21,736 nucleotides of DNA from Nitrospirales bacterium (lineage in GTDB: Bacteria; Nitrospirota; Nitrospiria; Nitrospirales; UBA8639). The stretch is taken from assembly GCA_029261305.1 (NCBI GenBank), contig JAJDBO010000324.1:1-21736 (forward strand). The letters run 5' to 3'. The notes below the pieces were generated by a model that was not told the origin of the DNA, ran no database searches, and was given only the letters and a program-made list of their open reading frames with translations. The position numbers and the translations under genes are program-made. Of this stretch, positions 6,001-21,003 are shown piece by piece (position 1 is the first letter of the stretch; the number at the start of each line of letters is the position of its first letter).

Positions 6001-7361
6001 TGATGATTCTTCACAAGTCTTTGAGCATTCTCATCCTCTGGATCAAGCACATCGATTTCTAAAAATACGCCCGTAAGGAATGTTGTAGAGAAAGCCAAAT
6101 TAGAAAAGAGTTCTTGGTAATCTTGCCCCAAGATGAGTTCATCATCGGAAATATCTGCATCGTTTTGACCGATGAGAATGTAGGGGGAGTAAGTGTGGGT
6201 CGTAGTAGTAAAAACAGCTCCTCCTGTGGTTTTTGTATTTACAAAATTGCCTACAGAGAGAGGGTGCCCCACAAGTTCAACGGTATTAAAAGTTTTGTTT
6301 AATACCTCCTTTGGATCCTGGATTCCACCCGTTAAACTATTATTGAACTCCACAATTAACCGAACATCCACTTTGTGGCGAAGAGCCTCTGACACCTCAG
6401 AAAAAGTTCCCTCGACATCTGCAAAAGCATTTCCGATTTGTGCATTGGATACTGTGGGGTCAGCTGAATTAAAACCTCCACCTGTATCAAGTTCCACCCA
6501 ATAGTGCTCACGGGTTTCGGCAAGCAATTGGGGATCGTTTGCTGGATCAGTGCGTTCCACATCATCAGGAGGACATCCCACCATACGCGTAGGATTGGGA
6601 AACATGGAAAGAATCAGTTGTTGAGCTAAAGGATCGGACAACGTGCCCTGCGCATAGCGAGCTGGAACGCCAGATGCCCGCAGTAACGCAATCAACAAAC
6701 TGGCTTGGTCAAGGGCATTGCCAGACTTACTCCACAAGGTTCCTCGCGCTCCTCGGAGTGACCCGCGGTAAGATTCATATTCAATCTCATCACGCACAAA
6801 GGCGAAGATCGCATCAGGATCATTCCCCAGCTCTTGAGCTTTATCGACAATGAACTGATCTGTGGTATTGGCATCAGCTGTCGACTCAAGATTGGGATCT
6901 GAAGTCTGTGCATGAGCCTCGCTCACTAACAAGCTCGATAACAAGTCGAGCCACGTTTTACCCTCCCCTTCTTCTTTTCCCATTCCTTGACTAACATATC
7001 TTCTTTCTTTCGAACGGCGAGGGGTCTGTTGAGGCTCAAGGCTTTTTGCGGATGCCAACTGCTGGTTATCTGACACATCACAACTCGCTGCATCGCTTGC
7101 ATGCCGCTTCGTCAGACTTTCAATATCCGGTAGCACCTCTAGGTCTTGGAGTTGGCCATTAACTTTCTCAATGATGGAAGAGATTGGATTCTGGAGCTTA
7201 CTTACAGGAAGCGCTGATTGAACCGGCCTGGATTTGGTCGAAATCGAGGCAGACTGAGGTGGAGGAAACCCAAATGCCGTGGGTTGCACACTCTGAAAGG
7301 AAAAAATGATAACGATCGCCATGCATAAATTATCTATCCAACTTCTATCAGTCCACTTCAT
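1..7361 (-). CDS. Giant exported protein: transglutaminase-like module, Ig-like, LVIVD and PKD repeats (C-terminus beyond window)
   Basis: One frame stays open from ATG 7361 to the window edge, 2453 complete codons, with GGGGAG nine bases before the start. Residues 11-30 are a hydrophobic export segment; a second site, SLLVSEAHAQT, lies near 143-153. Residues 160-310 are transglutaminase-like (GVPARYAQGT, EHYWVELD, SADPT), with Ala216 where the catalytic Cys is expected. The module shared with the 8297-9727 gene ends at about 467 (IGFVARQ). Residues 470-900 are unassigned and AT-rich. From about 900 come Ig/CARDB-like repeats with a helical insert near 1105-1215. About seven LVIVD-type repeats follow (AIVDINDPTSPQIL, VLVVDIANPA, LFSLDMTDPANPQVLGEL; about 1475-1835), then further Ig-like repeats. 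A PKD-type domain (TPPITDAGPDQSIALGE...) begins near 2370. I infer a surface or secreted adhesion/binding protein. The missing C-terminus may hold an anchor, more repeats or an RHS-like end. Confidence 0.9.
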   Translation of the reverse strand, partial: MKWTDRSWIDNLCMAIVIIFSFQSVQPTAFGFPPPQSASISTKSRPVQSALPVSKLQNPISSIIEKVNGQLQDLEVLPDIESLTKRHASDAASCDVSDNQQLASAKSLEPQQTPRRSKERRYVSQGMGKEEGEGKTWLDLLSSLLVSEAHAQTSDPNLESTADANTTDQFIVDKAQELGNDPDAIFAFVRDEIEYESYRGSLRGARGTLWSKSGNALDQASLLIALLRASGVPARYAQGTLSDPLAQQLILSMFPNPTRMVGCPPDDVERTDPANDPQLLAETREHYWVELDTGGGFNSADPTVSNAQIGNAFADVEGTFSEVSEALRHKVDVRLIVEFNNSLTGGIQDPKEVLNKTFNTVELVGHPLSVGNFVNTKTTGGAVFTTTTHTYSPYILIGQNDADISDDELILGQDYQELFSNLAFSTTFLTGVFLEIDVLDPEDENAQRLVKNHQRDLFDRIGFVARQVGGTSNIGVNTDGEPSFSEFNVVTINALPGLQSDLVFPIQQDRLTTLTQELSEIQPLLNALPESGDLTTEEQALMGRAFVLLRNILNVTGETLTLTHAAASDVMLNQLEQGFITKAHYVSPRLILALTQVDGETASIKLDLRKNDIRIIPAPGQVTTIKETGIVGNQNDAEFAIGYVFQIVRGVIESALEGEVLSAVTGKNAISILDIFNNLEGSQDFVLIVDDNLQELESLPISDVAKARITKAVRKGKGVISPRKMVTIEGKTDISWFETDLVTGHTVSVMMDGGHPAALEFGFLVPSKVNQAIFIGIGTLSGFATEIVLFQAAFMVQLLDGGTPIINMSLLVLNAKETANLIMNQIFIALLAESARDLSLLGLNFALGMKAGSRVASAWLERNFPDDPPVFQFLSNDLIPPAPFATGTSGVALQVILDDLFTLPVGGAEVPSVFKAQIQNLGPDEDSFALSFSQVPSGFTIQSSVSTLTVPAGHTGEIGICVVPDGSLGNVGDPATFTADVVSTTNPTVASTDTELFTIPDVPGVTLSSSPASLASAPGLPVSSTLTISSVGNVSLQDVPLTLEFSPELTVTGLTSPITLGAGQSTTQTLMLTPAGSTPLNSTLTATVTATLPVAPFTVSTPISLQIAAPGAQPAVDASIAAGQLGQSELASTLDALGTALTELFNDLTNELFKSRVLALLETLFGQLDDPLLTPFLGDLISARDALANSTPATIGDALNQLSGVLGSIEGVLSGLVASGMDISLFPPSRVALPDTPAIFDVFLQNTGTQTTTYVLVLSALPGDVIGSLDQSSITLTPGEAVGVDGAPGPTVTLTQTGQSLQAFGFNVTATVQSQPGITQLAHGTMTAREELVTVVEVKPDPGFVDAGDSVQVTTRLLNAVNQPRLVEVSYVVKDPTDAVVFTAAPVETTLSVASSLDTIDLGVLDTTGFVDGTHSIEVTVADVADPSLSSVTGQGSLLIGSPLNATLSITPEILPPGDGMVSATLNVESLVPLPGPQINLLGLVDTPASATTVEFKDNLAYVCGTEDIAIVDINDPTSPQILSNFAGSLIAGSFNTQCRILNNHLIVFWQIGLNANALPLLVYDLANPLSPNLVRNTTVNRRFINSMFVQGNSAYLTSLTLFFINNLLTSQRGDFFSVDFSDITNPQFSDALLAPTSNPDGGNVNMFQAVPINDQLALVATTTETGRVGGSGVGRVLVVDIANPANLFISKSVTLPGTVYGTGIAVQGNVGLAVGNTGHRINSGPVFPFSGTVKLFSLDMTDPANPQVLGELTTTATNTFKTNVTALGNGFFSVGGTTVSGSQVLMVVDTNDPQNLQVTNINVPEFVHEARVIENRLHTVSSAGLGIYDIGDVVGTRVASKVRIPKNTDVALVPNTFNIAPTEIISGTDFDTFVWSRSLNEARTSETFTWDLSVTGLQAGEGREIIEGATIDFMVADEGSGQIELPPQFVISEQLLGLTPGIQTVQPGAPAAFSVTVNNPTDTQVTHDLSVSGVPAQWVTLASSVTVPAQVSVQVPLILQSESIATVSENGFVVSIDDPGTSVSGGTVQGTLILAGSPLVPSGDTLAVVVDLTPSTLTGGQGTGTTYVARVTNTGNVTDTYTLNGSFPAGFTGVFDQTSVEVPAGLTNFREVLVSLTPSVGTTPGNFPFTVTGTSTTNASVQDGATGTHTVVNLGVAVSLSPTTGTPTTPFEITVTNTGTVAETFDVGLGGELGAFSLIPVSDVTLNAGDFLVIPIMVDSEFVLFPGDVTLAAVVTSQTSPAVQANATAIVTIAPTQGVRAVADPTEQILPAPGDAGFTVIVENEGNTEDAFTATIAGTTGPLASDLTGLDDQPTQQIETFRLPGHSTGAILLNTNISQVGEGTVDVTITSQSPSGGNDTATARVEVPNTPPITDAGPDQSIALGETAVLDGSASNDPDAFPSSLTFEWILVSVPAGSSLSTADLINPTTSIASLIPDILGDYVVQLTVSDG

Positions 7362-7745
7362 GATGACGCACTCCCCATTAAAAATCCATTTTCTCTTTAA
7401 GGTGCAAATCTGCCTTTCATTCTGCACCACTTTCCACGACTATTTCTCCTACTGCTCTTTATTTTTTCGCTCAACAATACACGCACTAAAGTCTCAAAAT
7501 CTTGATTAGCCTGGCGGACATTAGCATCCCAATATTTGCCAATTATGAAAAAATGTTCACCCTTACAAAAGCTACAAGAACAAATTGAATTAACATTTCT
7601 AAATCTCAAGTCTTCTGAATTTTCTTCCGAAACTAGGGTGTAAGGCAGAAAATGCTCATAAATATTTCTTCGTTTCATACTTAAACAATATGGACTTTGT
7701 TGTCACCATCACAAACAATAACTTTTGAATAACACAGCTAACCTT
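7362..7745. other. Divergent intergenic region between the giant gene and the first 147-residue gene
   Basis: This AT-rich gap of about 380 bases should hold both divergent promoters; I could not pick convincing -35/-10 pairs. The 25 bases before the giant gene (ATGGGGAG plus about nine bases) resemble those before the decayed copy at 11443, so the ribosome-binding region was duplicated along with the coding module. The palindromic element seen upstream of that decayed copy is absent here. Confidence 0.5.
7397..7678 (-). CDS. Doubtful small ORF, 93 residues, upstream of the giant gene
   Basis: An open frame of 93 codons ends 35 bases before the giant gene on the same strand. The predicted protein has a CxCxxC cluster (ICSCSFCKGEHF), is rich in Arg/Lys and aromatic residues, and has no signal peptide or membrane segment. 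No clear Shine-Dalgarno sequence precedes ATG 7678 and no relative is found elsewhere in the window. It could be a real leader gene, a remnant, or chance. I do not recognise it. Confidence 0.25.
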   Translation of the reverse strand: MKRRNIYEHFLPYTLVSEENSEDLRFRNVNSICSCSFCKGEHFFIIGKYWDANVRQANQDFETLVRVLLSEKIKSSRRNSRGKWCRMKGRFAP

Positions 7746-8189
7746 ATGACCAGCCTTCTTACATTGAGACAAATTCAGGTCCGGTCGACCCTTGCGACAC
7801 TTCCTTTCTTGATACCTATTCTGTATGGCTTAAGTTATTTCCTTTACATAGACCTTGAAAATAGCTCAATCCAGTTTTTCCTTCGAGCAAGTCTTGGCCT
7901 TATCCTGACATTTTTCATTTGTTGGAAGTTGTGTCCCCTCCCCACTTCTCCTGAATTTAAAACTGCAGGCATAAGCCAAAAATCAGTTGTAACCATTTCC
8001 ACGATTATTATTTTGGAATTTCTTATAGATCTTTTGCCTGATACTATTGCTCCTACCTGGATCAATTCTGAGGCAGGGCTTTTTGTGAGTTCTTTCGTCC
8101 TAACCTACGCAATTTTCTTCATCGCATTCAGGCACTGGGCTCAAAAATCGACAGACAATCCTTCTCAACCCAATCAACTAATCTCCTAA
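7746..8189 (+). CDS. Four-helix membrane protein, 147-residue family, copy 1
   Basis: An upstream TTG at 7725 is in frame, but I place the start at ATG 7746 because the relative at 14743 begins at the equivalent residue (MTSxLTLRQIQVRST) and both proteins then have exactly 147 residues. Four hydrophobic segments lie near residues 18-36, 45-62, 80-98 and 110-128. Conserved family patches are LTLRQIQVRST at the cytosolic N-terminus, FFLRAxLGL, TAGISxKSV and the C-terminal FFIAFRHWAQKS. No catalytic motif is visible and I do not recognise the family. It converges on the 8297-9727 gene, and its 3' flank resembles the flank of copy 2, so the duplicated unit extends past the gene. Confidence 0.8.
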   Translation: MTSLLTLRQIQVRSTLATLPFLIPILYGLSYFLYIDLENSSIQFFLRASLGLILTFFICWKLCPLPTSPEFKTAGISQKSVVTISTIIILEFLIDLLPDTIAPTWINSEAGLFVSSFVLTYAIFFIAFRHWAQKSTDNPSQPNQLIS

Positions 8190-8296
8190 CACTATTAACA
8201 ATTGTAGAATCCACTCTTCATCTTTTTGCACACTCCGTTCCTGATGTTGAAAGCCATCTGGGTCGCGTTCCAATCATACTTTCTACACTCTCCCAT

Positions 8297-9727
8297 CTAT
8301 AACATGTAGGTTCTTGTCCCATTAGCCATTAAACTTTGCCTGGCCGCAAAACCCAGACGATCCAAAAGCGTTCGGTCATGTGTCTCGACAGCCCGTTGAC
8401 CAGTCTTGTCCTCCGGCTCCACCACATCCATTTCTAAAAACACGCCTGTAAGAAATGTCGTGGAGAACGCCAAGTTGGAAAAGAGTTCTTGATAATCCTG
8501 CCCACGGATAAGTTCATCGTTGGAAATACCTAAATCATTTTGGCCAATTAGAATGTATGGAGAATAGGTATGGGTGGTTGTGGTAAACACGAGGCCACCT
8601 GCTGTTTTCGTTGTCACAAAATGGCCAACAGAGAGGGGATGCCCCACGAGCTCGACCGTATTGAAGGTTTGATTTAAAACCGTATCAAGGTCTTGGAGTC
8701 CACTGGTCAGACTATTATTGAACTCTACCTTGAGCCGCACAATCACTTTGTGTCGAAGGGCATCAGAAATTTCAGAAAAGGTATCTTCGGAGACGGCAAA
8801 AGCATTGCCTAATTGTGCATCAGGCACAGTGGGATCAGCTGACGTAAAGCCTCCACCTGTATCTAGTTCCACCCAATAATGCTCTTTGGTTTCTGCCAAC
8901 AATTGTGGATCATTGGCCGGGTCCGCACGCTCGACATTATCAGGAGGACAACCCACTACACGAGTAGGATTTGGAAACATAGAGAGAATGAGTTCTTGCG
9001 CTAAAGGATCAGACAATGTTCCCTGCACATAGCGAGCAGGAATCCCCGATGCACGTAGCAACGCAATGAGTAAGCTAGCCTGATCAAGGGCATTTCCTGC
9101 ATTACTCCATAACGTTCCCCGTGCCCCACGAAGCGATCCACGGTAGGATTCGTAACCAATATCATCGCGGACAAAGGCAAAGATGGCGTTCGGGTCATTG
9201 CCCAACTCTTGTGCCTTTTCAATGATAAATTGGTCTGTTGTATTTGCATCGGGTGTCGATGCTAAATTCAGATCCGGAGGAGTCTGTGCATGGACCTCAC
9301 TTACCAGCAGGCTGCCGAGCCATTCCAGCCATGGGAACCCACCTTCGTTGATCTCAGTACTTCGCGCTTCTTTGAGAGGAGAATCGGAGATAAATGGTGA
9401 AGTTTTAGGGGGAAAGGGCTTATCAATTGCGAGGTCGGGCACCGAACAACTTGCCGTCTCTTTGGCCAGAGGTTGCGTCAATTTTTCAATATCAGGCGTT
9501 GCTACTAGTTCGTGGAGTTGCCTTTTCATCTGATCAAGTATGTAAATACCTTTATTCCCTGAAAGGCCTTTCGGGAATTCGGTGAAGGTGGCTTGAGCTT
9601 TTGATGGCACCGAGGCCGACCGTGGCGATGCAAACCCATACGTCAGCGACTGCACACTTTGTGACAAAAAAACGAAGACAATCATAAAAGAAAGATTTCT
9701 AAACCAGGTTGCCTCGGTCCACCTCAT
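8297..9727 (-). CDS. Stand-alone transglutaminase-like exported protein (copy B)
   Basis: This 476-residue protein is collinear with residues 1-467 of the giant protein and then stops after a unique tail of about ten residues ending TRTYML. It starts MRWTEATWF with GAGGAG eight bases upstream. A hydrophobic export segment spans about 11-30, and a second export-like site (WLGSLLVSEVHAQT) ends near 149. The transglutaminase-like core lies at about 160-305, with the GIPARYVQGT, KEHYWVELD and SADPT motifs. His283 and Asp298 occupy triad positions, but the Cys position is Ala213 (GNALDQASLL). Residues 330-465 carry the conserved extension (HTYSPYILIGQND, FSNLAFSTTFLTGVFLE). The frame is fully intact, so the gene may be expressed. 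It is either a truncated descendant of the giant gene or a genuine single-module partner. Confidence 0.88.
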   Translation of the reverse strand: MRWTEATWFRNLSFMIVFVFLSQSVQSLTYGFASPRSASVPSKAQATFTEFPKGLSGNKGIYILDQMKRQLHELVATPDIEKLTQPLAKETASCSVPDLAIDKPFPPKTSPFISDSPLKEARSTEINEGGFPWLEWLGSLLVSEVHAQTPPDLNLASTPDANTTDQFIIEKAQELGNDPNAIFAFVRDDIGYESYRGSLRGARGTLWSNAGNALDQASLLIALLRASGIPARYVQGTLSDPLAQELILSMFPNPTRVVGCPPDNVERADPANDPQLLAETKEHYWVELDTGGGFTSADPTVPDAQLGNAFAVSEDTFSEISDALRHKVIVRLKVEFNNSLTSGLQDLDTVLNQTFNTVELVGHPLSVGHFVTTKTAGGLVFTTTTHTYSPYILIGQNDLGISNDELIRGQDYQELFSNLAFSTTFLTGVFLEMDVVEPEDKTGQRAVETHDRTLLDRLGFAARQSLMANGTRTYML

Positions 9728-10042
9728 GAATCTACTCCTCTCCAGTTCTACCCAATTACTTACAATTGGTAATTTAAAAGGATTTTCTTTTTCGTTTTTT
9801 TCACAGGATCATGCTACGCGTCACCCATTGGGACAGAAAAACCATTCACATTTGGGCCAAATCCGCATTCCAGGTTACTCTGGGAAAAACATCACTTTTA
9901 TGGCTTAAGTTCCGATAGAGAGATAGTAGATTGCAATTGACTAGCCCTAAGGATAAATTCGTCTCTAATATGGCTTTTGCACCTAAAAAAACTCATCAGA
10001 TTGAATCAAATACAAAGGAAAAAAATTCAAGGGGCCAACCAA
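9728..10042. other. Intergenic region between copy B and the 212-residue membrane gene
   Basis: This AT-rich stretch separates two divergent genes and must hold both 5' regions. A small inverted repeat (CCAATTA...CAATTGG) lies near 9750-9768, close to the copy B ribosome-binding site. The TATCTAATC palindrome seen upstream of copy C is absent. I see no gene here; in-frame TTG/ATG codons before 10043 lack a good ribosome-binding site. Confidence 0.4.
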
Positions 10043-10681
10043 ATGAATGTTGAATCACTCAGCAATGAAACTTTAATTGGAACAAGACGATTAAATCGGT
10101 TTTTTGCAGTTTACCTTGGGGCCTTCTTTTTCATAGGTTTTGCGATATCTTGTGTATATGGCTTCACTGCATTAGCTAAGACGAAAGAGCTCCAGCTTAC
10201 ATTCGAATTCATATTAAGTTCGATGGGCTTGCTCGTCATAGGGATGGCAGTTTCCTTTAGTATTTCATTATTGCTTGGGAGTAAAATGGTTCAAGCTCTT
10301 GCTCGCAAATTAGATCATGAGAATGTGATCTCCACACTTCAACCCTTAATCATTAGTGGGGACTTCCCATTCATTGGATTCCATATCTGTTTTTTGACTG
10401 GAATCATGCTTACCCAGCTTGATGAAACACTCTGCACTACTCCATCGCTGAAAGCCTTTGAAGATTTAATTTCCATACAATGCATTCCACTTTTCCTTGG
10501 CCTGAATGCTTTCATTTTAGGCATTGGTGCTGGTGTTGCCCTATGGGCCTATCTTTGGACGACGAAACGAGAAAAAAAGACTTCTTCCCCCATACATGTG
10601 AACTTCTTCTGGACAAAGAATTCCTCCATTGAATTCGGTATCCTCGCGGGCATCGTTGTCTTACTATCCCTATTCTTTTGA
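10043..10681 (+). CDS. Five-helix integral membrane protein, 212 residues
   Basis: The start is chosen at ATG 10043 because AGGGG lies eight bases upstream; a longer frame opening at TTG 9977 would add a charged N-terminus without a ribosome-binding site. Hydrophobic segments lie near residues 20-42, 55-78, 104-124, 145-172 and 197-212. There is an acidic/Cys-containing outer loop (QLDETLCTTPSLKAFED) and a basic loop (TTKREKKTSSPIHV) before the last helix. The gene sits between copies B and C, both on the other strand. Topology and the SSPIHV patch resemble the protein at 18335 (SAPIHL), so the two may be distant paralogues. Function unknown. Confidence 0.75.
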   Translation: MNVESLSNETLIGTRRLNRFFAVYLGAFFFIGFAISCVYGFTALAKTKELQLTFEFILSSMGLLVIGMAVSFSISLLLGSKMVQALARKLDHENVISTLQPLIISGDFPFIGFHICFLTGIMLTQLDETLCTTPSLKAFEDLISIQCIPLFLGLNAFILGIGAGVALWAYLWTTKREKKTSSPIHVNFFWTKNSSIEFGILAGIVVLLSLFF

Positions 10682-10763
10682 CTTTTCCAACTCACGTCGC
10701 CCCCTGCGGACTTATAAAAACATAGTAAAAGTTATAGAAATAGAAGTAGGTATGAGGATTGAT

Positions 10764-11443
10764 CAATAACGCAATTAACAGACCGGCTTGATCACGAGAA
10801 TTCCTCTCCTTACTCCACAACCTTCCTCGCGCCCCACGTAGTGACCCATGGTAGGATTCATAGCCATTTTTTCACGCACGAAGGCAAAAATGGCATCAGG
10901 ATCGTTTCCCAATTCCTGCGCTTTATCGATAATGAACTGGTCAGCCGTGTTTGCATCAGGGGTGGATTCCAAATTGGGATCTGAAGTCTGCGCATGCGCC
11001 TCGCTCACGAACAAGCTCGACAACAGGTCGAGCCACGTTTTCCCCTCCCCTTCTTCTTTGCCTGTTCCTTGCCTAACATATCCTCTATTTTTCGAACGGC
11101 GAGATGAATGTTGGGGCTCAAGGTTTTTTGCGGATGCCAATTGCTGGCCATCTGGAACATCACAACTCACCGCATCGCTTTCGTGCCGCTTCGTCAGATT
11201 TTCAATATTTGGCAGCACCTCCAGCTCTTGGAGTTGCCCATTAACTTTGTCAATGATGGAAGAGACTTGATTCTTGAGCATATGTACAGGAATCGCTGCT
11301 TGAACCACCCCGAGTTTGGCCGAAACCAAGGGTGGCTGAGGTAGAGCACACCCAAGTGCTATTGGTTGCACACTTTGCGCAATAAAAATGCACGCAATGG
11401 CAGTACATAGATGCTTAAACCAGAATGTTTCTATCCACCTCAT
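10764..11443 (-). pseudogene. Decayed transglutaminase-like copy C (frameshift plus 3' truncation)
   Basis: It begins MRWIETFWF with GGGGAG nine bases upstream and matches copy A most closely (SSIIDKVNGQLQELEVLPNIENLTKRH, KEEGEGKTWLDLL, VSEAHAQTSDPNLES). After FAFVRE a single base is missing beside a run of six T on the plus strand (10867-10872). The frame as written therefore ends at 10775 in unrelated residues. Restoring one base recovers GYESYHGSLRGARG and then DQAGLLIALL. Homology stops at about 10764, inside the core and before the His and Asp motifs. The gene is therefore dead as an enzyme or module, although a 222-residue exported fragment could still be made. Confidence 0.88.
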
Positions 11444-11851
11444 AACAAAACTCTCCCCATGTTAAGTAGTTTCACCATTTAAGTTGAATTATTCTGATTT
11501 AACCAGTTTGTTAGTCCAGGCATTGGTTGGATAGTACGCAACAAGCATGCCATTAATAACCATAATAGGTACATAATTAAATATTTTTATAAATCAATGG
11601 GTTATTGTTGAAATAGAGGAAGGCAGGGAACCAGTTTAGTTCAGTGATTATTAAAAACTGTATCTAATCAGATACAGTTGTTTATCAGATTAGATACACT
11701 TTGTGCGAAACTAAGGTTTTTTAGAAGGACGCCACACTACCTGCTGAGGAAGGTATACGAAGAAACACTTAAAATCTAAGGAGAACGTTCGGCAAAGATA
11801 TTCCGACAAAAGGGTTATAAGATAGAATCTTTGGGGCATTTCTGCTACGCA
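11444..11851. other. Upstream region of copy C, duplicated at about 15340-15600
   Basis: This is a non-coding, AT-rich stretch of 408 bases. The portion near copy C matches the region at 15340-15600, for example CGCAACAAGCATGCC against CGCAACAATCATGCC, and includes the two-part palindrome. The remainder up to the 197-residue gene shows no gene. The matched region therefore appears to be the ancestral 5' region of a transglutaminase-module gene. Confidence 0.55.
11656..11699. repeat. Two-part palindromic element, copy 1 (possible operator)
   Basis: A perfect hairpin has arms AACTGTATCT (11656-11665) and AGATACAGTT (11670-11679) around the loop AATC. GATTAGATAC at 11688-11697 is the inverted copy of GTATCTAATC at 11660-11669, with starts 28 bases apart. 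The element can be read as two inverted TATCTAATCNGATA sites. It lies 213 bases upstream of the copy C start. A dimeric regulator site or alternative RNA hairpins are both possible. Confidence 0.6.
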
Positions 11852-12445
11852 TCATCCAATTGAAGTCTCCTCCTTTTCTTCAATGTAAAGAATGCGGTGA
11901 TTTTGGATCTCCCACCACCAGACCCATCCACATTCAAGACATAATATTCCTAAGAAGTACCCAATTAAGATCCCTTGGAAAAGATTCAGGCACAGGCTTT
12001 CTCCTCGAATATCAAACACCTGACACAAGATAGAATTTGAAGAATCCATAACACCCAAAAAGAGAAAAACTCCAACTACGCAAAATCTGGTTAAGCCAAT
12101 TAAGTACCCCCCTCTGTTTATTCCTCTGAGAGCTCCATTTTTGATCCGAGGCACAAGACTAAACTTCACGCCAATAATTCCCAACATGAGCCCTACGGGG
12201 ATTCCCAATAACACTCCCTTACTCACAACCACCCAATTCTGGATGAGGCCCCAAAAACAGGGTTCGCTAAACATCAAAAACACTAAGACAAATGTTAAAG
12301 TATATCCCAGATTCTCACTAAAAATTTGATTCAAGACACGTTCTTTTCGGCCCTTCACCAAGCGGACCATATCCATTACATTATGGAAAGGACCCAGCAC
12401 CAGAAGTAATAAGGCAAGGAAAAGCAAACTATTGCACATATTCAT
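11852..12445 (-). CDS. Five-helix integral membrane protein, 197 residues
   Basis: This intact frame starts at ATG 12445 (MNMCNSLLFL), with AAAGG about eleven bases upstream; the ATG two codons later is an alternative. Hydrophobic segments lie near residues 5-27, 46-62, 74-95, 113-133 and 152-175, separated by short basic loops (RLVKGRKERVLNQ, PRIKNGALRGINRGG). The tail is acidic (YIEEKEETSIG). Cysteines and tryptophans cluster near 169-178 (CLECGWVWWW). It has no paralogue in this window and I do not recognise the family. It lies in the same orientation as decayed copy C, about 410 bases upstream of it, so they are unlikely to form one operon. Confidence 0.7.
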   Translation of the reverse strand: MNMCNSLLFLALLLLVLGPFHNVMDMVRLVKGRKERVLNQIFSENLGYTLTFVLVFLMFSEPCFWGLIQNWVVVSKGVLLGIPVGLMLGIIGVKFSLVPRIKNGALRGINRGGYLIGLTRFCVVGVFLFLGVMDSSNSILCQVFDIRGESLCLNLFQGILIGYFLGILCLECGWVWWWEIQNHRILYIEEKEETSIG

Positions 12446-12571
12446 TAAGGCTAAAACCTTTCAGGTCTTTTACATTAGGATAAAGCTGAGGTTGCAGTTT
12501 TTTCAGTTTATAAAGAGCTTCAACTTGGTTAACCTACACAACTAAACTACTACACCCAAAAGTCTCTAGTC

Positions 12572-12837
12572 TTTTATCGGAACATTCCTCACTGGCCTTA
12601 CCAAAATTACCCTTTTCTCTTTTCCTGTTAGTCTTATTCAATCAAGTTTTATTTTTTTCATCGCCCTTCATTGTCCTTCACCTACGTTTCCTTACAATTA
12701 TAAGTTTAGAAAATTGGCAAAACCCAAACTGGTGTATTTTCTTTCTTTCAATGCTCATGACTTTTCAGGAAAGTCCGAGAACTACATAGGGAAATATGCC
12801 CCCGCGAGACCAATCATCAACGTGAGGTTACTCATCT
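12572..12837 (+). repeat. Conserved leader region before the 268-residue gene (copy 1)
   Basis: About 250 non-coding bases here are repeated at 17113-17357 with high identity; GAGAACTACATAGGG is shared exactly and long stretches differ only by point changes. Both copies immediately precede a member of the same membrane-protein family. The leader therefore probably carries its promoter and 5' untranslated region. The upstream stretch 12446-12571 shows nothing else. Confidence 0.6.
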
Positions 12838-13644
12838 ATGCTACCCCCTCTCCCCACCCTTTCAGGTAATCACCTTCATCTTTGGCCAGTTATTCGTGAG
12901 GCCGTCGCCTTTCCTTGGCAATACCGACAGATGTTGTGGAAATGGGTATTGGTGTGTGGAACGTTGGCAGGGCTAACAAATTATGTCCTCGAAAGCTACA
13001 TTGTCCCCGAAAGTGAAAAGGTCGATGACCTGTCAGGCCTGTTTGATGATTTAGGATATACATTTATCCTTGGGGCTCTCAGCATTTTCGTTTATACCCT
13101 TTTTTGTATTCGCTGCCATAGATTGGTGTTGTTGAAACCAACTCCTGAAATTGAAGCCTCGGTTTTCCAATTGGGCAAGCGAGAATACAACTTTCTCTCT
13201 TTTCTTTTAAAAGTTTGTTTGAGAATGTTTATTCTCATCCCGGTAATTCTTCTGATTGCCGTGCTTTCAACCCTTATTGGCATTTCCGACGGTCCCTATC
13301 AAGATATGATATTCTGGCTTGTCTTAGGCCCACCAACTGCCTATATTTTAGGCCGATTTTGTATGGTTTTTCCTGCTACAGCAATCGATTTAGAACCTTC
13401 CTTGGCTTGGGCCTGGGAGCAATCCAAAGACTTGGCATGGCGGCTTGGAATACTTGCAGGGGTTCTGCCTTGGCTTTTTTCTTTCATCTATGAGGGAAAG
13501 TTATTCTTCGGAATCGATCAATACGCCTTGGCCCATTCGATCACCTACGGCTTCTTGTCATTTATCTTTATCGCCATAGAAGTGGCTGTTATCAGCATTG
13601 CCTTTCGGGAACTTTCAGGATTTGAGAGTCCACAAAAAACTTAA
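12838..13644 (+). CDS. Six-helix membrane protein, 268/288-residue family, copy 1
   Basis: The start is ATG 12838; a stop lies in frame five codons upstream and GTGAGG sits ten bases before the start. Hydrophobic segments lie near residues 35-52, 74-92, 118-148, 156-180, 198-218 and 234-256. Shared with the protein at 17418 are AFPWQYR, LWKW, FCIRCHRL, LGRxCMVFPxTAID, WAWEQSK, WRLGILAG, PWLF and IAFRELS. The pattern GR..MVFPATAID...AWAWEQSK...WRL resembles bacterial membrane families such as UPF0259/YciC-like or the membrane domain of glycerophosphodiesterases. That assignment is tentative. The gene heads a plus-strand run with the genes at 13669, 14200 and 14743. Confidence 0.8.
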   Translation: MLPPLPTLSGNHLHLWPVIREAVAFPWQYRQMLWKWVLVCGTLAGLTNYVLESYIVPESEKVDDLSGLFDDLGYTFILGALSIFVYTLFCIRCHRLVLLKPTPEIEASVFQLGKREYNFLSFLLKVCLRMFILIPVILLIAVLSTLIGISDGPYQDMIFWLVLGPPTAYILGRFCMVFPATAIDLEPSLAWAWEQSKDLAWRLGILAGVLPWLFSFIYEGKLFFGIDQYALAHSITYGFLSFIFIAIEVAVISIAFRELSGFESPQKT

Positions 13645-13668
13645 GCAGGAACACCCTAGCTGGGAGCT

Positions 13669-14016
13669 ATGACTTTTCTTATTAAAAAATTTGCCAATTT
13701 TCTCCATTCACGTGGATATATCTCGATCACCAACAGCGATGCCATAAATTTGTTACCCGGAAGCGTGGCTTTAATCCTTCTTGTATGTGCGACTTGGTTT
13801 TCCGATTTTACGATAACCCTCAGTGAGGGCTCCTCTTTTCTTCCACCGTTCTTTGGGTCCGGGCTACTCAAAATTTTGTTTGGGGTTCCGCTCTTGTTAC
13901 TTGGTGCGTTTGGGTTTGTGATGTTCTGGCATACAAAAGATAACAACGGGTTACCTTCTAAGAAGAACGTTCTTTCCAGCCCTAAACCAGCAAAGGAAGA
14001 CAATAGCCAAAATTGA
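13669..14016 (+). CDS. Small two-helix membrane protein, 115 residues
   Basis: This frame opens 24 bases after the preceding stop, suggesting co-transcription. The nearest ribosome-binding candidate (GGGAG) is only two bases from ATG 13669, so the exact start is uncertain. Two hydrophobic segments lie near residues 28-46 and 64-87. The N-terminus is basic (TFLIKKFANFLHSRGY) and the hydrophilic tail is Lys/Ser-rich (PSKKNVLSSPKPAKEDNSQN). A reverse-strand frame of equal length overlaps it, but lacks membrane character and context. No equivalent is present in the second unit (17418-19658). Function unknown. Confidence 0.6.
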   Translation: MTFLIKKFANFLHSRGYISITNSDAINLLPGSVALILLVCATWFSDFTITLSEGSSFLPPFFGSGLLKILFGVPLLLLGAFGFVMFWHTKDNNGLPSKKNVLSSPKPAKEDNSQN

Positions 14017-14035
14017 GAGAGTTATAATAAGAGAG

Positions 14036-14057
14036 AATTTGGGGTCGGCCCCAAATT
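14036..14057 (+). terminator. GC-rich stem-loop after the 115-residue gene
   Basis: The arms AATTTGGGG (14036-14044) and CCCCAAATT (14049-14057) pair perfectly around a TCGG tetraloop, 20 bases after the stop codon. No T-run follows, so this is not a textbook intrinsic terminator. It could be an attenuating or mRNA-stabilising hairpin between the first two and last two genes of the run. Confidence 0.45.
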
Positions 14058-14199
14058 TCAAAATGACCCCAATTCCAATTTCTGAAACCCATGACGACTA
14101 GGCTCAAGAGATTGAGAGCCAAGCCGAAAAAGAAGAATGAGAGAAAACGAGGTCCCCTCACACCGGACTAAGGAATTATAGTTCTGCAAAGACATTTAT

Positions 14200-14691
14200 A
14201 TGACTTCCTCGCCTCCATCCCAACCGATTGTGCTCCGAGCCGCTTTCTTAACAGCAACATTTTTTATTTTTTTGATAATACTTCTGATGTTTCTGTATTA
14301 CCCCAAGTACACCACCTACAGACTAATGGATATCCTAGAAGCTTCCCTCCCTATAAGTCTGGGAATTCTGATCGGAGTGGTAGTTATCTGGCTGGTATTT
14401 CCTTCGTCTTATGCACCAAAATACTATGATGAATTTTTCCCGAAAATTTCTTGGGTCTTTTTGTCGTATTTGTTTTTTGCCCCCTTGGTCTTTGTGACAA
14501 TTTCAGGCATCTCTCCTTTTGACTACCACAAAATTCTCTTTTCCACTCACTCTCCCCTTAATTCTGTTTTCTATAATACCGAGAACATAGCCTTTCTCAC
14601 TTATCTCATATTCTTCTTAGCCTTGGGGGTCGGGATTAAAAAACACATGGCCCATGGCAACAACTCGCCTAACGTTCAATACCCCCCTTAA
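14200..14691 (+). CDS. Four-helix membrane protein, 163 residues
   Basis: The frame begins at ATG 14200 without a strong Shine-Dalgarno sequence and ends 51 bases before the next gene. Hydrophobic segments lie near residues 12-33, 48-67, 84-105 and 128-147. Tyr-rich loops (YYPKYTTYRL, YAPKYYDEFFPK) separate the early helices. The short tail is polar. It occupies the position between the 268-type and 147-type genes that the unrelated-looking 222-residue gene occupies in the second unit, so it appears to be exchangeable cargo. I do not recognise the family. Confidence 0.7.
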   Translation: MTSSPPSQPIVLRAAFLTATFFIFLIILLMFLYYPKYTTYRLMDILEASLPISLGILIGVVVIWLVFPSSYAPKYYDEFFPKISWVFLSYLFFAPLVFVTISGISPFDYHKILFSTHSPLNSVFYNTENIAFLTYLIFFLALGVGIKKHMAHGNNSPNVQYPP

Positions 14692-14742
14692 CAAGACATG
14701 GGCTTCATCACCAAGAATTACGTTGAAAAGTAGAGATAACAC

Positions 14743-15186
14743 ATGACTAGCCCCTTGACCTTAAGACAAATCCAAGTCCGCTCTACAGTAACAACACTTG
14801 TTCTCCTTTTCCCTCTTCTTTTTGCTATTACCCATTTCTTTTTTTTAGAACTTGAATTTAGTTCAACACCCTTTTTCCTTCGTGCAAACCTTGGTCTCGT
14901 CCTGGCCTTTCTGCTTTGCTGGATGTTGTCCCCATCCCCCAATGCTCCTGAATTTCAGACTGCAGGCATAAGCCGAAAGTCAGTTACAGTCATTTCCATG
15001 GTTCTGATCTTTGGGGTTCTTGTTGGTCTTTTTCGGGATTCCATTGTTCCTCCTTGGGTCAAATCTGAGACAGATCTTTTTGTCACTTCCTTCTTGTTGA
15101 TTCACGTGGTTTTTTTTATCGCGTTTCGTCACTGGGCTCAAAAATCTTCAGTCACTTCTTCGCAACCTAATCAATTACACTCCTAA
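14743..15186 (+). CDS. Four-helix membrane protein, 147-residue family, copy 2
   Basis: The protein has 147 residues, the same length as copy 1 at 7746, and aligns along its whole length: MTSPLTLRQIQVRSTV, FFLRANLGLVLAF, TAGISRKSV, FFIAFRHWAQKSS and SQPNQL. Hydrophobic segments lie near residues 18-36, 45-62, 80-98 and 110-128. It is closer at the DNA level to the broken copy at 19212 than to copy 1, so copies 2 and 3 separated more recently. It is the last gene of the plus-strand run that starts at 12838. The ribosome-binding site is weak (GAGA). No function can be assigned. Confidence 0.8.
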   Translation: MTSPLTLRQIQVRSTVTTLVLLFPLLFAITHFFFLELEFSSTPFFLRANLGLVLAFLLCWMLSPSPNAPEFQTAGISRKSVTVISMVLIFGVLVGLFRDSIVPPWVKSETDLFVTSFLLIHVVFFIAFRHWAQKSSVTSSQPNQLHS

Positions 15187-15934
15187 CCCTATCTCCCCTT
15201 GCAGAATCCAATCTAAACCCTTTTGGCAAACTCCCTCACAAATCATGAACCCCTCAGGAATCAGATCTTCAATCACACTAATTACAAATTCCCGTCTATA
15301 ACATTTTTGCTGATTTTTCCTTCCACATCATTGCGCAATTCCCCTTCTAATGTAGGTATTCCCCTTATTCAGACCAGATTCTTCTGAATTCACTAGTCGG
15401 TCATTCATGACACCGGTTAAATCTCACGCAACAATCATGCCGTTCGAACCCAAGATAGGGACGAAAAGATAAATAACTTAAAAATCAAACTATTACGTTA
15501 CGGATAGGGAAGCAGAAAAAAGTGAGGGGGACTCAGATAATTAAAAAAAAAGTATCTAATCAGATACAAGGATTTATCCGATTAGATACACCCTTAGTGG
15601 AAAACACGAACTGCGCAAAGGGGACTAGATACGTTTATTAATTGAAGTGATTACCGGTAGGGAGCTGGAAGGAAACTTAAACTGTCAGCAAAATAATATG
15701 AACAATAAATTGAGACTGGCCTACCATTTTTCGAAAGTGCCAGTTATTCTTCAGTTCTATAGCTGCCCCAATTATATCACCGACTATTTTTCCTGGGATA
15801 AAATAAACAGGAACTTCGGATTTGTGGTCGCAAAACTCAATATTTCTCCTGCGAGAGCTTTCATATTTAATGACTACGAACAATGCCAATGTACAGCATG
15901 TACTTTCAGCAAGGTGAGTATATTATCCAACCAG
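15187..15934. other. Gene-free region with duplicated flanks and a deletion scar
   Basis: Bases 15187-15304 match the 3' flank of the 147-residue copy 1 (8190-8305), including TCTATAACAT, which in copy B contains the reverse complement of its stop codon. Bases from about 15338 to 15600 match the 5' region of copy C, including the palindromic element. About 35 bases remain where a 1.4-kb transglutaminase-module gene would be expected. Between 15600 and 15934 I see only short frames without context: 110 codons on the plus strand (15647-15979, overlapping the DUF3592 remnant) and 70 codons on the minus strand (15677-15889). Neither is convincing. Confidence 0.55.
15552..15591. repeat. Two-part palindromic element, copy 2 (possible operator)
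   Basis: GTATCTAATC (15552-15561) and its inverted copy GATTAGATAC (15580-15589) start 28 bases apart, exactly as at 11660/11688, although the bases between them differ. A shorter hairpin GTATCT-AATC-AGATAC sits at 15552-15567. Conservation of spacing and core with divergent filler suggests a protein-binding or RNA-structural constraint. Confidence 0.6.
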
Positions 15935-17011
15935 TTATATTATTCGAGCATATCTCAAATTTGTAACTCCCCGCCTTAAGAAGAAAAAACTTCCCCCCAG
16001 CATTATCCATAACGGAATACGTAACCAAGGGAAAACGTTTTCATTGGCTTGATGTAAGATGGCTTCATTAGGATTTTTGGGATTTACGTAACATGTGGTC
16101 TTCGTACCCGAAGGTTACTCTGCAATAACACGTTTCGCTTTTTCTGCTGTCATATCATTACCAGCCATCGAGTAGTTACTCGATTCATATTTCTTTCCTT
16201 TTATTTGGTAACGGTAGAATATATCAACTATGTATGCCGAACTTTTTGAAATAGTTTCGCCCTTTTGTACCAATCCACTTTTTACAATGAGACACGATGT
16301 TGGGTGCCAATCCTCGGTGGTAAGGACTCTAGATTCAGCGTAATAGCTCATACCCAGAACAATAATAGCGGGGATAAAAAGGAGGGCACCATAGAACAGT
16401 TGTTGGGGAACCCTTGCCGCAGCTTTCCAATCTTGAATGCTAGCTTCAGGTTTTATACTTTCAGATGTCTGATCAACCAGAGGAAGATCAAAGTATTGTT
16501 TTAGAGCCTCGAATTTTTCTCGTACACGTGATTCGTGAACGGGAGAAGCCGCAATTAAGGGAATTGTCTTACCGGACTCTGGATGCGCTAATTCAAGTGC
16601 TAAAACATCACCCAGTTTCCAGCCCAATACCGTTTGAGGTATCTGTTTGAATTCGAGAGCAGTGTATTCATGAATTGCAGCTTTCCAGCCCTGTTTCCCC
16701 AGAGGAGATTTAGAACGAAACGTAATGTGATCAGGACCAATTTCGACCTTCAGATTGGAAAAAAACTCAATCGTTGCTTTAAAACTCAAGGACAAGACCA
16801 AAACTGCCAAAATTCCATAAAACCAATTTTCACTTTGTGATATCGCATTCCACGAAAAGCTAAAGCCCATACAGTATAGCGTAAGAAGGGCAACTATTGA
16901 CTGCAGGCTTGACTGGCTTGGGCTAAGGTCAAGAACCATAGGTAGCTTGGAGGGATCAAGCGGTTCCTGGTCAAGGATCTTTTTCCTCATCAAATTATAA
17001 ACATCATTCAT
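15935..17011 (-). pseudogene. DUF3592-like membrane protein interrupted by an in-frame TAA
   Basis: ATG 17011 has GAGGTG five bases upstream, and the frame runs 298 codons to a TAA at 16117-16115. The same frame then continues without a shift for 59 codons (PSGTKTTCYVNPKNPNEAIL...NLRYARII) to TAA 15937-15935, giving 358 residues if read through. Hydrophobic segments lie near 36-58, 63-85, 203-228 and, after the stop, about 328-345. The C-terminal half (WHPTSCLIV...VDIFYRYQIKGKKYESS...RVIAE-stop-PSGTKTTCYVNPKNP) has the layout of DUF3592 proteins, where an aromatic residue is usual before P.G. One base change of a Tyr codon (TAT/TAC to TAA) would explain the stop. The product would lack its last helix unless the stop is suppressed. 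Confidence 0.8.
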
Positions 17012-17023
17012 GCAAACACCTCA

Positions 17024-17041
17024 AACAGAAAGGTTTCTGTT
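17024..17041. promoter_or_regulatory. Inverted repeat just upstream of the DUF3592-like gene
   Basis: Arms AACAGAAA and TTTCTGTT pair perfectly around GG, ending 13 bases before the start codon and adjoining the ribosome-binding site at 17017-17022. The position suits a repressor site or a translational hairpin. No second copy was seen. Confidence 0.4.
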
Positions 17042-17112
17042 GCATTCAATGCCTACGAATTCAATACCTTGATGTGACAGGCAATAAAACCATTACGCTC
17101 TATAGCGTATTA

Positions 17113-17357
17113 TATTCATCGGAACATTCATCACTGGTCTCACCTAAATTACCATTTCCTTGCCCATTAGCCTTTTTCAAGCAGAATATATATTTTCATG
17201 ATCCTTGATTATTCTTCACCTACGTTTCATTACAATAATAAGATTAAAAATTACCAAAACCCAAACGGGTGTTTATTCTTTCTTATAATGCTCATAACTT
17301 TATTGGGAGAGGCCGAGAACTACATAGGGAGATATGACCCAGTAAGACCAATTATCA
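17113..17357 (+). repeat. Conserved leader region (copy 2)
   Basis: This stretch matches 12572-12822 nearly end to end, including CGGAACATTC, CACCTACGTTTC and GAGAACTACATAGGG. Unlike copy 1 it does not run into the start of a complete gene. It breaks off after CAATTATCAA and continues straight into an internal piece of a 268-type gene, so the 5' end of that copy was deleted. Confidence 0.6.
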
Positions 17358-17455
17358 AGTTGTAGAAATGGGTTTTGGTGTGTGGAGAATTGGTTGGGTT
17401 ACTGAGAGTCAAAGCCTATGAAACTTACTACATGCCTTCAGAAAATATTCGATAA
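17358..17455 (+). pseudogene. Internal remnant of a 268-type membrane gene
   Basis: The bases aligned with codons for WKWVLVCGTLAGL...VLESYIVPESEK in the 12838 gene (about 12933-13025) reappear here in degraded form, for example GGTGTGTGGA and the stretch around TGAAACTTACTACATG. A complete second copy follows at once. The arrangement records a tandem duplication whose first copy collapsed to about 100 bases. Confidence 0.6.
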
Positions 17456-18284
17456 AATAATAGTCCAAGCAGGCGGAGACTTAGCTTCGACTACACCACT
17501 CCCAATACTATCAGGGAATCGCCTTCCTCTATGGTCTATTTTTTGTGAAGCCTTAGCATTTCCCTGGCAATACCGTCATTTGCTTTGGAAATGGATATTA
17601 GTGTGTGGGGTGGTATTAGGATTAACAGACTTTGCCGCTAATATTTTTGATACTCACGAATCCGCAGAAGAGAGGGGCTTCTTAGATCTTCTTTACGAAC
17701 TTGTCTTCGCAGGGCTCGATTTTGTCCTGTTCTTTACTCTATATACCGTCTTTTGCATTCGATGCCACAGATTGATTTTACTTGGCCCAACAGCTGACGC
17801 TGACGTATTCCCACTTCCATTGGGTGAACGAGAATCCTACTTTTTGCTATTTCTATTAGTCATCTATGGCAGCATCACATTCGTATTTATCTGTGGAATA
17901 TTTTTTGAGGTTTTTCTTGATATTTCAGATACCAGATATGCGGACTGGCCCTTTTTTACACTTTCCATGATTCCCCTCTCCTATATGCTTGGACGTTACT
18001 GTATGGTCTTCCCTGTTACCGCTATTGATATACGGCCAACCTTCAAGTGGGCTTGGGAACAATCCAAAGGCATTGGGTGGCGGCTTGGGATTCTTGCCGG
18101 ATTTCTACCTTGGCTTTTTTTCTTTATCTATAACGGCAAATTATTTTTCGAATTGAATGAGCATCCATTTGTATTTTCACTTATTACGGAAATATTGAGG
18201 TTCGTCTTTGCCACTATAGAGGTGGCCGTACTCTCGATTGCTTTTCGGGAACTATCAAGATTTGAGAGTCCACAACAAACATAG
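17418..18284 (+). CDS. Six-helix membrane protein, 268/288-residue family, copy 2
   Basis: Residues 24-288 align with the protein at 12838 from TPLPILSGN to RFESPQQT, with AFPWQYR, LWKW, FCIRCHRL, LGRYCMVFPVTAID, WAWEQSK, WRLGILAG and IAFRELS conserved. Hydrophobic segments lie near residues 56-74, 94-112, 140-168, 176-200, 218-238 and 255-276. The first 20 or so residues (MKLTTCLQKIFDKI...) have no counterpart in copy 1. They are encoded largely by the tandem remnant, read in a different frame. ATG 17418 is the only good in-frame start I see, with a weak GAGAG eleven bases upstream. The gene is followed 50 bases later by a 222-residue membrane gene. Confidence 0.75.
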   Translation: MKLTTCLQKIFDKIIVQAGGDLASTTPLPILSGNRLPLWSIFCEALAFPWQYRHLLWKWILVCGVVLGLTDFAANIFDTHESAEERGFLDLLYELVFAGLDFVLFFTLYTVFCIRCHRLILLGPTADADVFPLPLGERESYFLLFLLVIYGSITFVFICGIFFEVFLDISDTRYADWPFFTLSMIPLSYMLGRYCMVFPVTAIDIRPTFKWAWEQSKGIGWRLGILAGFLPWLFFFIYNGKLFFELNEHPFVFSLITEILRFVFATIEVAVLSIAFRELSRFESPQQT

Positions 18285-18334
18285 TTAGCGACCTCGAAAG
18301 AATCTATATTAAGTCGAACAAGAGCTCTTCTCCT

Positions 18335-19003
18335 ATGAATCTTCCTGTCAATCAAAAAACAAAATCTTCAACATTAACTCCCTTAATAAGAGTCTGCCAT
18401 GGAGACTTGCTACTCTTCATATCATTCTTGTGCCTAACTTTTTGGGAAAACATTGAATCCCATTGGCGCGACGCCTCCTTTTGGCTTGAAAGTGCCTCTC
18501 AAGTATCAGGGCCCTTTTTCATTGGTGTGGGGTTGGCTGGATTAGTCGTTCTTACCGGACAAAATCGGCTCCCTCAACTTCAAACCCGAATGGGAGATCC
18601 TCCGATTATTCCAGATCAAGCTGGCCCCCTGAACGGAACATCATTCTTTTTCCCTTTACGAATTGTTAATGCATGCATATGGAGCTTCCTCACAATTTTC
18701 TTTTTTAACCTCATTGCATGTAAGGAGGTGAATCATGCCGCCTTTCCTGCGCTCCATCCATTTTGTCAAAGTGTTGGGCAAAACATTTCACATGGTCTGA
18801 TCGGTCTAGCCCTTGGATACATTCTCTGGCTCCTATCCTATGCCTATAAGATTGAAAAAATACGTTCTGCACCTATCCACCTCGAAACACCCTGTCACCC
18901 TGAAACTTTTTTCCAAAATCCTCTTTTGAAATTAGTGCTCATCTCGCTCTCTTTGCTTGTAACCTTTGAGGTCGTATTTTTAGCCTTACGTTTAAATCAA
19001 TAA
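18335..19003 (+). CDS. Five-helix membrane protein, 222 residues
   Basis: The frame starts at ATG 18335, 50 bases after the preceding stop, and probably shares its transcript. Hydrophobic segments lie near residues 22-38, 58-76, 103-127, 150-172 and 196-218. A hydrophilic loop of about 25 residues at 77-102 (GQNRLPQLQTRMGDPPIIPDQ) follows the second helix, and an outer loop holds Cys129 and Cys144. The basic loop KIEKIRSAPIHLETP before the last helix resembles KREKKTSSPIHV in the protein at 10043, which has the same helix layout. Distant homology is possible but not proven. It occupies the variable position between the 268-type and 147-type genes. Confidence 0.75.
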   Translation: MNLPVNQKTKSSTLTPLIRVCHGDLLLFISFLCLTFWENIESHWRDASFWLESASQVSGPFFIGVGLAGLVVLTGQNRLPQLQTRMGDPPIIPDQAGPLNGTSFFFPLRIVNACIWSFLTIFFFNLIACKEVNHAAFPALHPFCQSVGQNISHGLIGLALGYILWLLSYAYKIEKIRSAPIHLETPCHPETFFQNPLLKLVLISLSLLVTFEVVFLALRLNQ

Positions 19004-19211
19004 TACAAATATTAAAACATATTGCCCTACGTTCACCTCTAAGAAGCTAAGAAGATCAAATATTTTTTTTGAGAGTTACGCTTGTCCATAGTTCTTTTCT
19101 CTGACCAATTAGTATATCCATTGAAAATTCCCTAAATTCTTCTGAGGACCATTGGCCTGATCTTCAAATCTGACCTTACTAACAGTAGCCGTGAAATACT
19201 CAGCCACCCAT

Positions 19212-19658
19212 ACAGTTACCCCTCTGACATTGAGACAAATCCAACTCCCCTCTACGTTAATGACACTTGTTTTCCTTTTCCCTCTTCTTTTTGCAATTAC
19301 ACATTTCTTTTTTTAGAAATAGAATTTAGTTCAATGCCCTTTTCCCTCCGTGCAGGCCTTGGCCTTATCGTGGCCTTTCTGCTTTGCTGGAAGTTAGTGC
19401 CCTCCCCCCACTCCTCTTGAATTGCAGACTGCAGGAATAAGCCGAAAGTACGTTATAGTTATTTCCGTGGTTCTGATCCTTGGGGTTCTCGTTGATCTTT
19501 TCCGGGATACCATTGTTCCACTGTGGGTCAAAACTGAGACAGACCTTTTTGTGACTTCTTTCTTACTAATTCACGCAATTTTCTTCATCGCATTCAGGCA
19601 CTGGGCTCAAAAATCTTCTGGCACTTCTTCTCAACCTAATCAATTACCCCCCTATTGA
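19212..19658 (+). pseudogene. Broken 147-residue-family membrane gene, copy 3
   Basis: DNA identity to 14743-15186 is obvious over the whole length (LTLRQIQ, then CTTTTCCCTCTTCTTTTTGC, TAGISRKYV, FFIAFRHWAQKSS, TSSQPNQL). The ATG at the family start reads ACA (19212), although a GTG lies in frame a few codons upstream. A T-run has seven T (19308-19314) where copy 2 has eight, giving an immediate TAG at 19314. A C-run of six (19404-19409) carries one extra base that restores the original frame. The intact 3' part could give a 78-residue fragment from TTG 19422. Both indels are in homopolymers, so sequencing error must be excluded. Confidence 0.8.
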
Positions 19659-20700: not shown

Positions 20701-21003
20701 TTACACTTTTGATGCCCGACATCCATCGTTCTCAGCTTCCTCGGGGAAGGCATAGCAACGCTCTGGCTGAGTTTTGTTATAAAACCGCTGCCCTGGCATA
20801 TGGTAAATACAGCGTTCCCCACTATGAGTGGTAAAGTTGCCTTTTATAGGGTGAGAGGAAGGACAAGAATTTTTGCTTGAAGGTTCCACCCCAGGTTCCT
20901 TGTTCGACTCCTCGTTCACTTTTTTTTCAGCTGAAAAGGCAATGGGAACCACAAGAATCAGGACCCAAACTGAAACTTGAATTAATCCTTTAAATTTCCC
21001 CAT
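20701..21003 (-). CDS. Small exported 'sunset'-type domain protein
   Basis: I place the start at ATG 21003 because AAGGAGGA lies just upstream with suitable spacing. An ATG at 21036, overlapping the preceding stop as ATGA, would add eleven residues before the signal peptide. Residues 1-24 form a signal peptide (MGKFKGLIQVSVWVLILVVPIAFSA). A Glu/Lys/Ser linker leads to a C-terminal module of about 55 residues (CPSSHPIKGN...CIYHMPGQRFYNKT.PERCYAFPEEAENDGCRASKV). This matches the HPIKGN / IYH-PG / T-PE-CF / GYR-SK pattern known as the sunset domain and also found at the ends of some secreted nucleases. The four cysteines are suited to disulfides. Function of the stand-alone form is unknown. Confidence 0.8.
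   Translation of the reverse strand: MGKFKGLIQVSVWVLILVVPIAFSAEKKVNEESNKEPGVEPSSKNSCPSSHPIKGNFTTHSGERCIYHMPGQRFYNKTQPERCYAFPEEAENDGCRASKV

Follow-up and report, generated by a model that had tools for sequence, protein, structure and literature searches.

We analysed a stretch of 21,736 nucleotides from a Nitrospirales bacterium (contig JAJDBO010000324.1), here called the window, in which truncated copies of the N-terminal module of TGbig, a giant transglutaminase-like (TG) protein, cut at different points, alternate with genes for small membrane proteins of the 147 type, the 268 type and perhaps a two-cysteine family. The source organism is a relative of marine nitrite-oxidising bacteria, and the contig most likely comes from a metagenome. 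The region is probably an accessory genomic island next to a GST gene, where a small number of families multiply, undergo recombination and degenerate. The most likely course of events is an ordinary one, the birth, replacement and decay of genes within an accessory region, here involving uncommon and unnamed families. Narrow searching of the literature found no description of such a locus.

Gene copies and degenerate pieces

We compared the window with itself by BLAST (self-BLAST). The results showed that the families named in the original prediction are duplicated far beyond chance: 147a and 147b share 59% amino acid identity (E 1e-55), and 268a and the 268 gene of run 2 share 50% (E 1e-78). 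The N-module of the giant protein is present in three copies, one giant and two truncated, one of the latter frameshifted. TG476 is 68% identical to the TGbig N-terminus over 464 residues, and TG222 is 68% identical over 204 residues up to a frameshift, after which TGbig residues 195-227 resume in another frame at 10862-10764. The three 147-type genes that had been proposed are all homologous, but only two are intact. The third copy, 68% identical to 147b at the amino acid level, has lost its start codon through substitutions and carries one -1 and one +1 indel, one of them within a T run. With TG222, TG476 and a 268 stub, it makes up the four degenerate pieces of the window. The predicted transglutaminase scar in run 2 was not found: tblastn at E ≤ 1 gave no TG similarity in run 2 or after 19658, and the TG queries matched only the three TG places in the window. 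Should the scar have meant a 147 gene, the broken 147 copy is present in run 2.

We then estimated synonymous divergence (dS) and the ratio of nonsynonymous to synonymous divergence (dN/dS). The gene copies evolved under constraint and are not fresh, since dS was 0.57-2.0 and dN/dS 0.12-0.37 in four pairs: 147a/147b (0.85 and 0.30), the two 268 genes (1.7 and 0.23), TGbig/TG476 (2.0 and 0.12) and TGbig/TG222 (0.57 and 0.37). Over the 77 codons that form the final open stretch of the third copy of the 147 gene, dN/dS was 0.18 with 147b and 0.51 with 147a. The N-terminal 200 codons of TG476 were saturated against both TG222 and TGbig and yielded no ratio.

The 268-type genes and their leaders

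Each run opens with a leader. The two leaders are 80% identical over 249 columns (E 2.5e-54), and their mismatches fall on the codon phases as 24, 28 and 22, without phase bias. An RNA element in the leaders was rejected on the basis of folding, which gave no signal (z 0.64 and 0.24), and of Rfam, whose one match in the window (E 0.65) lay under the gathering score and outside the leaders.

A tree of 12 proteins of the 268 type placed 268a with P0002, P0003, P0008 and P0012 (support 93/97, just below the tool's star), and the run-2 gene with P0009, P0005, P0004 and P0006 (95/96, starred), P0009 being its sister (100/99). P0010 and P0011 fell outside both groups, and most forks within the groups were unresolved. 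Because the two 268 genes fall in different tree groups, runs 1 and 2 are neither recent copies nor a simple duplication. The leaders are 80% identical while the genes behind them sit in different groups, so that the simplest account seems to be the replacement of one 268 gene by another under an old leader. The 268 stub, directly 3' of leader 2, matches 268a over 28 bp at 93% identity and gives weak translated matches (21.6-26.2 bits) to all 12 family members.

An amplified unit with swapped inner genes, as originally proposed, therefore does not describe the locus: its copies are old, and what seems to have been replaced is the outer 268 gene itself. The middle genes do differ as predicted (115 and 163 residues in one run, 222 in the other), and BLASTP reported no pair among g115, g163 and g222 at E ≤ 5. 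The broader idea of a recombining, decaying multi-gene locus held up, given the stub before a 268 gene of the other group, the four degenerate pieces and the apparent recurrence of 268 with 147 elsewhere. Homologous recombination between leaders and between paralogues would drive the shuffling, and the membrane proteins would reside in the inner membrane. The positions of all features are given in Table 1.

Table 1. Genes, gene remnants and repeats of the window, in order of position
Feature	Position	Strand	Description
TGbig	3..7361	-	giant protein, at least 2453 residues, 3' end beyond the window; transglutaminase-like N-module; Ig-like/FixG_C, LVIVD and PKD stretches
147a	7746..8189	+	membrane gene; homologous unit 7707-8305; transmembrane segments by simple hydropathy
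TG476	8297..9727	-	truncated TGbig N-terminal module, 464 residues plus an unrelated 12-residue tail
g234	10043..10681	+	putative membrane gene, 212 residues from ATG (234 from TTG at 9977); possible two-cysteine family
TG222	10764..11443	-	truncated, frameshifted N-terminal module; open reading frame 10775-11443
47-bp double palindrome, copy 1	11653..11699		repeat search
g197	11852..12445	-	putative membrane gene; possible two-cysteine family
Leader 1	12573..12820	+	non-coding; self-BLAST, phase and fold tests
268a	12838..13644	+	tree group A, CysZ-like predicted fold
g115	13669..14016	+	115-residue open reading frame, two predicted transmembrane segments
g163	14200..14691	+	163-residue open reading frame, four predicted transmembrane segments
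147b	14743..15186	+	self-BLAST, protein search
47-bp double palindrome, copy 2	15545..15591		on the - strand resembles a terminator stem, then T9
g298	16115..17011	-	298-residue open reading frame, two predicted transmembrane segments; no curated family above cut-off
Leader 2	17115..17358	+	non-coding; self-BLAST, phase and fold tests
268 stub	17359..17417	+	start of a 268-type gene (LWKW motif region), directly 3' of leader 2
Run-2 268 gene	17418..18284	+	288 residues, tree group B
g222	18335..19003	+	222-residue putative membrane gene; possible two-cysteine family
Third 147 copy	about 19212..19658	+	broken; start codon lost, one -1 and one +1 indel

Among the other membrane genes, g222 in run 2, g234 between TG476 and TG222, and g197 ahead of run 1 share a weak pattern, a pair of cysteines spaced 11-15 residues apart within the C-terminal half. 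Their pairs scored 29.3, 23.9 and 17.7 bits, above all 40 reversed-and-rotated controls for each pair; profile comparison was weak (hhalign probabilities 33, 0.6 and 0.2%). The three may belong to one fast-diverging two-cysteine family, which we regard as a lead. g115 and g163 gave only short, non-significant matches in the window, the best being g163 with 147b (E 0.044); these two and g197 were searched individually in profile libraries only.

The only repeat of at least 40 bp outside the family units and leaders is a 47-bp double palindrome in two copies, one on each side of g197 and run 1. Among the 48 genomes of the family of the reference genome G215, its core GTATCTAATCNGATAC was counted 14 times, spread over 13 of them, and the backwards control 0 times. 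An operator, a terminator and a dispersed element are candidates for what it may be.

Relatives and genomic setting

A profile scan of the window proteins identified GST and GDSL genes at the right end. They are 86% and 84% identical to those of G215, so the window most likely belongs to the Nitrospirales family of that genome. GST was matched in 25 of the 48 genomes of the family (full-length matches at 73-86% identity). For GDSL, some match was found in 89 of 97 genomes drawn from the order, the next best after G215 reaching at most 33% identity. In G215, GDSL adjoins GST, GST is followed by genes that we take to be DksA-like and bactofilin-like, and the cluster is absent. By comparison with this one genome, the cluster would be an insertion beside GST. 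A small Cys-containing open reading frame with a hydrophobic N-terminal segment (g111, 111 residues, 20701-21036) lies between GST and GDSL in the window and not in G215. The runs have a GC content of 42% (run 1) and 41% (run 2), the TG pieces one of 48-49% and GST-GDSL one of 48%, which fits the expectation of a patchwork. A viral origin of the region was rejected: the TG, 268 and 147 families had 0 confirmed loci in viral contigs, and 10 window proteins gave no PADLOC match and a single PHROGs match at E 0.09. For a plasmid origin of run 1, no plasmid match was found.

We next searched for relatives of the families. The protein database held 12 proteins of the 268 type and five of the 147 type, two of each from the window. 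Two of the three outside 147 proteins match one of the 10 outside 268 proteins in contig size and source, namely P0134 with P0005 (103424 bp, jgi) and P0135 with P0009 (6037 bp, lgn). From this equality we infer two other contigs that carry a 268 gene together with a 147 gene. Among the best 120 of 265 TG homologues, none of the 119 besides TG476 matches the contig size of an outside 268 or 147 protein. Of the co-occurrence expected in related genomes, the 268-147 part appears to stand, but the TG module was found in 0 of 235 Nitrospirales genomes at E ≤ 1e-20 and 147 in 0 of 235 in a search without positive control. Relatives of 268 were found in 14 of the 235. The TG profile itself works: at E ≤ 1e-10 it matched 49 of 395 genomes drawn from the phylum, all 49 lying outside the set of 235. 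Within the 48 genomes of the family, the TG module and g298 each gave one weak match (E 6e-4 and E 7e-4), and g222 and g234 each gave none in a search without positive control.

A scan of genome contigs for 268 gave one locus (L001, Nitrospirales bacterium isolate OFTM42), a lone 268 gene between genes that we read as asnS-type and rsmH/dcw-type. The 268 neighbourhoods read in addition were those of G218, G227, G229, G235, G145 (contig C2) and G216. In the first four (loci L024, L025, L026 and L027), no more than 3 kb separate the 268 relatives from a gene that we take, from its open reading frame, to be of the VIT/vWA type, and in G227, G229 and G235 (L024, L025 and L026) these relatives are paired. 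G145 and G216 have other neighbours.

These neighbourhoods bear on a further account, in which insertions accumulate at a hotspot 3' of GST and the TG pieces and membrane genes are functionally unrelated passengers. This is possible, if somewhat doubtful. It agrees with the occurrence of 268 relatives beside VIT/vWA-type genes, with their presence in 14 of 235 genomes in which TG and 147 were not matched, and with the higher GC content of the TG pieces than of the runs. However, the pairing of 268 with 147 seems to recur on two other contigs, the ends of 147a and g234 each converge with that of a truncated TG copy, and TG relatives may escape notice in genomes outside the searched set.

Exchange was also examined in the trio of 147 copies. 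A run of nine informative sites unites 147a and the third copy against 147b, and none of 2000 shuffles reached it, although the test assumes independent sites and is optimistic because the sites lie in adjacent codons. The two other run types were unremarkable, being reached by 245 and 622 of the 2000 shuffles. Several points weigh against an island of recombining families. In the 147 trio, 147b alone may be the changed copy, because at one codon of the nine-site run P0134, P0135 and P0137 have I where 147b has V. In the TG trio, no conversion run exceeded the shuffles. Relatives of 268 exist without TG or 147, so that joint action of the families would be conjecture. As to export, a hydrophobic segment at the N-terminus was picked up by the hydropathy scan in TG222 and not, at its threshold, in TG476. 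The insertion is read from the single genome G215, and the exchange is deduced within this contig.

For the giant protein itself, Pfam gave PF01841 (E 2.5e-11), FixG_C (4.2e-9), LVIVD (1.2e-4) and, under its cut-off, PKD_4 (0.014). Its N-terminus is hydrophobic as judged by eye, and TGbig is presumably exported. We listed the best 120 of 265 TG homologues, TG476 included, with giant TG proteins outside the length limits. At least five outside homologues are short (474-480 residues; P0015, P0016, P0017, P0018 and P0021), and these align to TGbig up to residues 451-474, followed by differing tails or none; contig ends may be the cause in some. P0017 and P0021, two divergent short proteins, have an unrelated tail in common, RNKPRCSGCIKSSNDPKH, which points to a shared element where the module is cut; this tail gave no significant match in the window beyond the TG part itself. 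P0014 (827 residues) and P0016 (474 residues) are both recorded on a contig of 4317 bp, and P0028 and P0085 both on a contig of 4714024 bp; several TG modules per genome are thus probably not unique to this window. The predicted structure of TG476 was unusable (mean pLDDT 38.8), and TG476 matched no solved structure at E ≤ 1.

Other explanations and known systems

As to function, we propose only tentatively that the membrane proteins act in the export, anchoring or protection of TGbig, itself presumably an exported protein. It is unlikely that the locus keeps a stock of detached N-terminal (export) modules of a giant pseudo-transglutaminase surface protein alongside membrane partners that diverge fast, the partners being reshuffled under conserved leaders so that a varying surface protein could be exported or tolerated.

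A polymorphic toxin locus, in which TGbig would be a toxin with its C-terminus beyond the window and the varied membrane genes would encode immunity proteins, is very unlikely. Among the 12 plasmid records that the TG module matched, the match is to RHS-annotated proteins in 4, and several small divergent membrane genes adjoin the giant gene. However, no toxin or immunity model was matched (Pfam with 17 proteins, NCBIfam with nine, PADLOC with 10, the giant C-terminus being absent from the window), the membrane genes lie upstream of TGbig, the 268 family is found elsewhere without TG, and the detached pieces are N-terminal with start codons, unlike the orphans described in PMC3150448. An immunity role of the membrane proteins is unlikely for this last reason, the pieces being the reverse of such orphans.

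An assembly artefact, in which paralogous regions were collapsed or joined into a chimera and the indels were sequencing errors, is highly improbable. The window proteins are recorded on one contig of exactly the window's extent, and a T run holds one of the indels of the third 147 copy; against this, the copies differ by about 16-30% in DNA, too far apart to have collapsed, substitutions account for the altered start codon of the third copy, and the 268-147 pairing apparently recurs on other contigs. A silent-cassette store, in which truncated copies donate sequence to TGbig by gene conversion, could draw on the three N-modules of one family at one locus, but it is barely credible, as the conversion tracts expected between store and expressed copy are missing from the TG trio, where 280, 689 and 1372 of 2000 shuffles reached the observed runs, and TGbig/TG476 is near synonymous saturation.

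The island read as a site of multiplying, recombining and decaying families was compared with known systems. Integron cassette arrays have an attC-like site after each gene and an integrase. The repeat seen here is the 47-bp double palindrome in its two copies; no integrase was present among the open reading frames scanned, and attC-like sites were not specifically searched for. The 268 type resembles CysZ-fold membrane proteins in predicted structure, at 9-10% identity and with 0 matches to solved structures at E ≤ 1. By sequence it does not join them: Pfam gave eight families for the 12 members, one member each, none of them CysZ/EI24. The 268- and 147-type members in the window had no Pfam match above cut-off, and NCBIfam had none for the one 268 and one 147 member scanned.

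The TG modules are like the PF01841 N-modules of large repetitive or RHS proteins in that the core scores above the cut-off of 23 bits (49.2 bits in TG476 and 44.2 in TGbig, which places both in the superfamily; TG222 had no PF01841 match), in their N-terminal position in a giant protein and in the kept His and Asp (His283 in 118 and Asp298 in 113 of the 120 listed homologues). They differ at residue 213 of TG476 (P0013), which we take to be the catalytic Cys column by our reading against the Pfam consensus: Ala stands there in 88 and Ser in 30 of the 120 (118 together), Thr in one and a gap in one, and Cys in none, so that the Cys-His-Asp triad is incomplete. The family may be a pseudo-enzyme module of wide occurrence.

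Two membrane-protein families without a Pfam match in their window members come to light here, together with what is likely the replacement of a gene behind a leader that was kept. According to a passage of PMC10579370, no genetic tools are available for this order of nitrite oxidisers. A further likeness is to the orphan loci of contact-dependent growth inhibition (CDI) and Rhs systems, where, as here, a large protein gene, detached fragments and variable small genes stand together and recombination takes part. In those systems the immunity gene lies directly 3' of the toxin gene; here the 3' end of TGbig lies beyond the window. The CDI orphans described in PMC3150448 are fragments of toxin C-termini that lie downstream of the main genes and for the most part lack a translation start, whereas TG476 and TG222 are N-terminal, have an ATG and a purine-rich stretch upstream (in TG476 GGAGAGGAG, resembling a ribosome-binding site), and lie upstream of TGbig. 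If the families work together, these detached N-terminal modules would be the mirror image of CDI/Rhs reshuffling.

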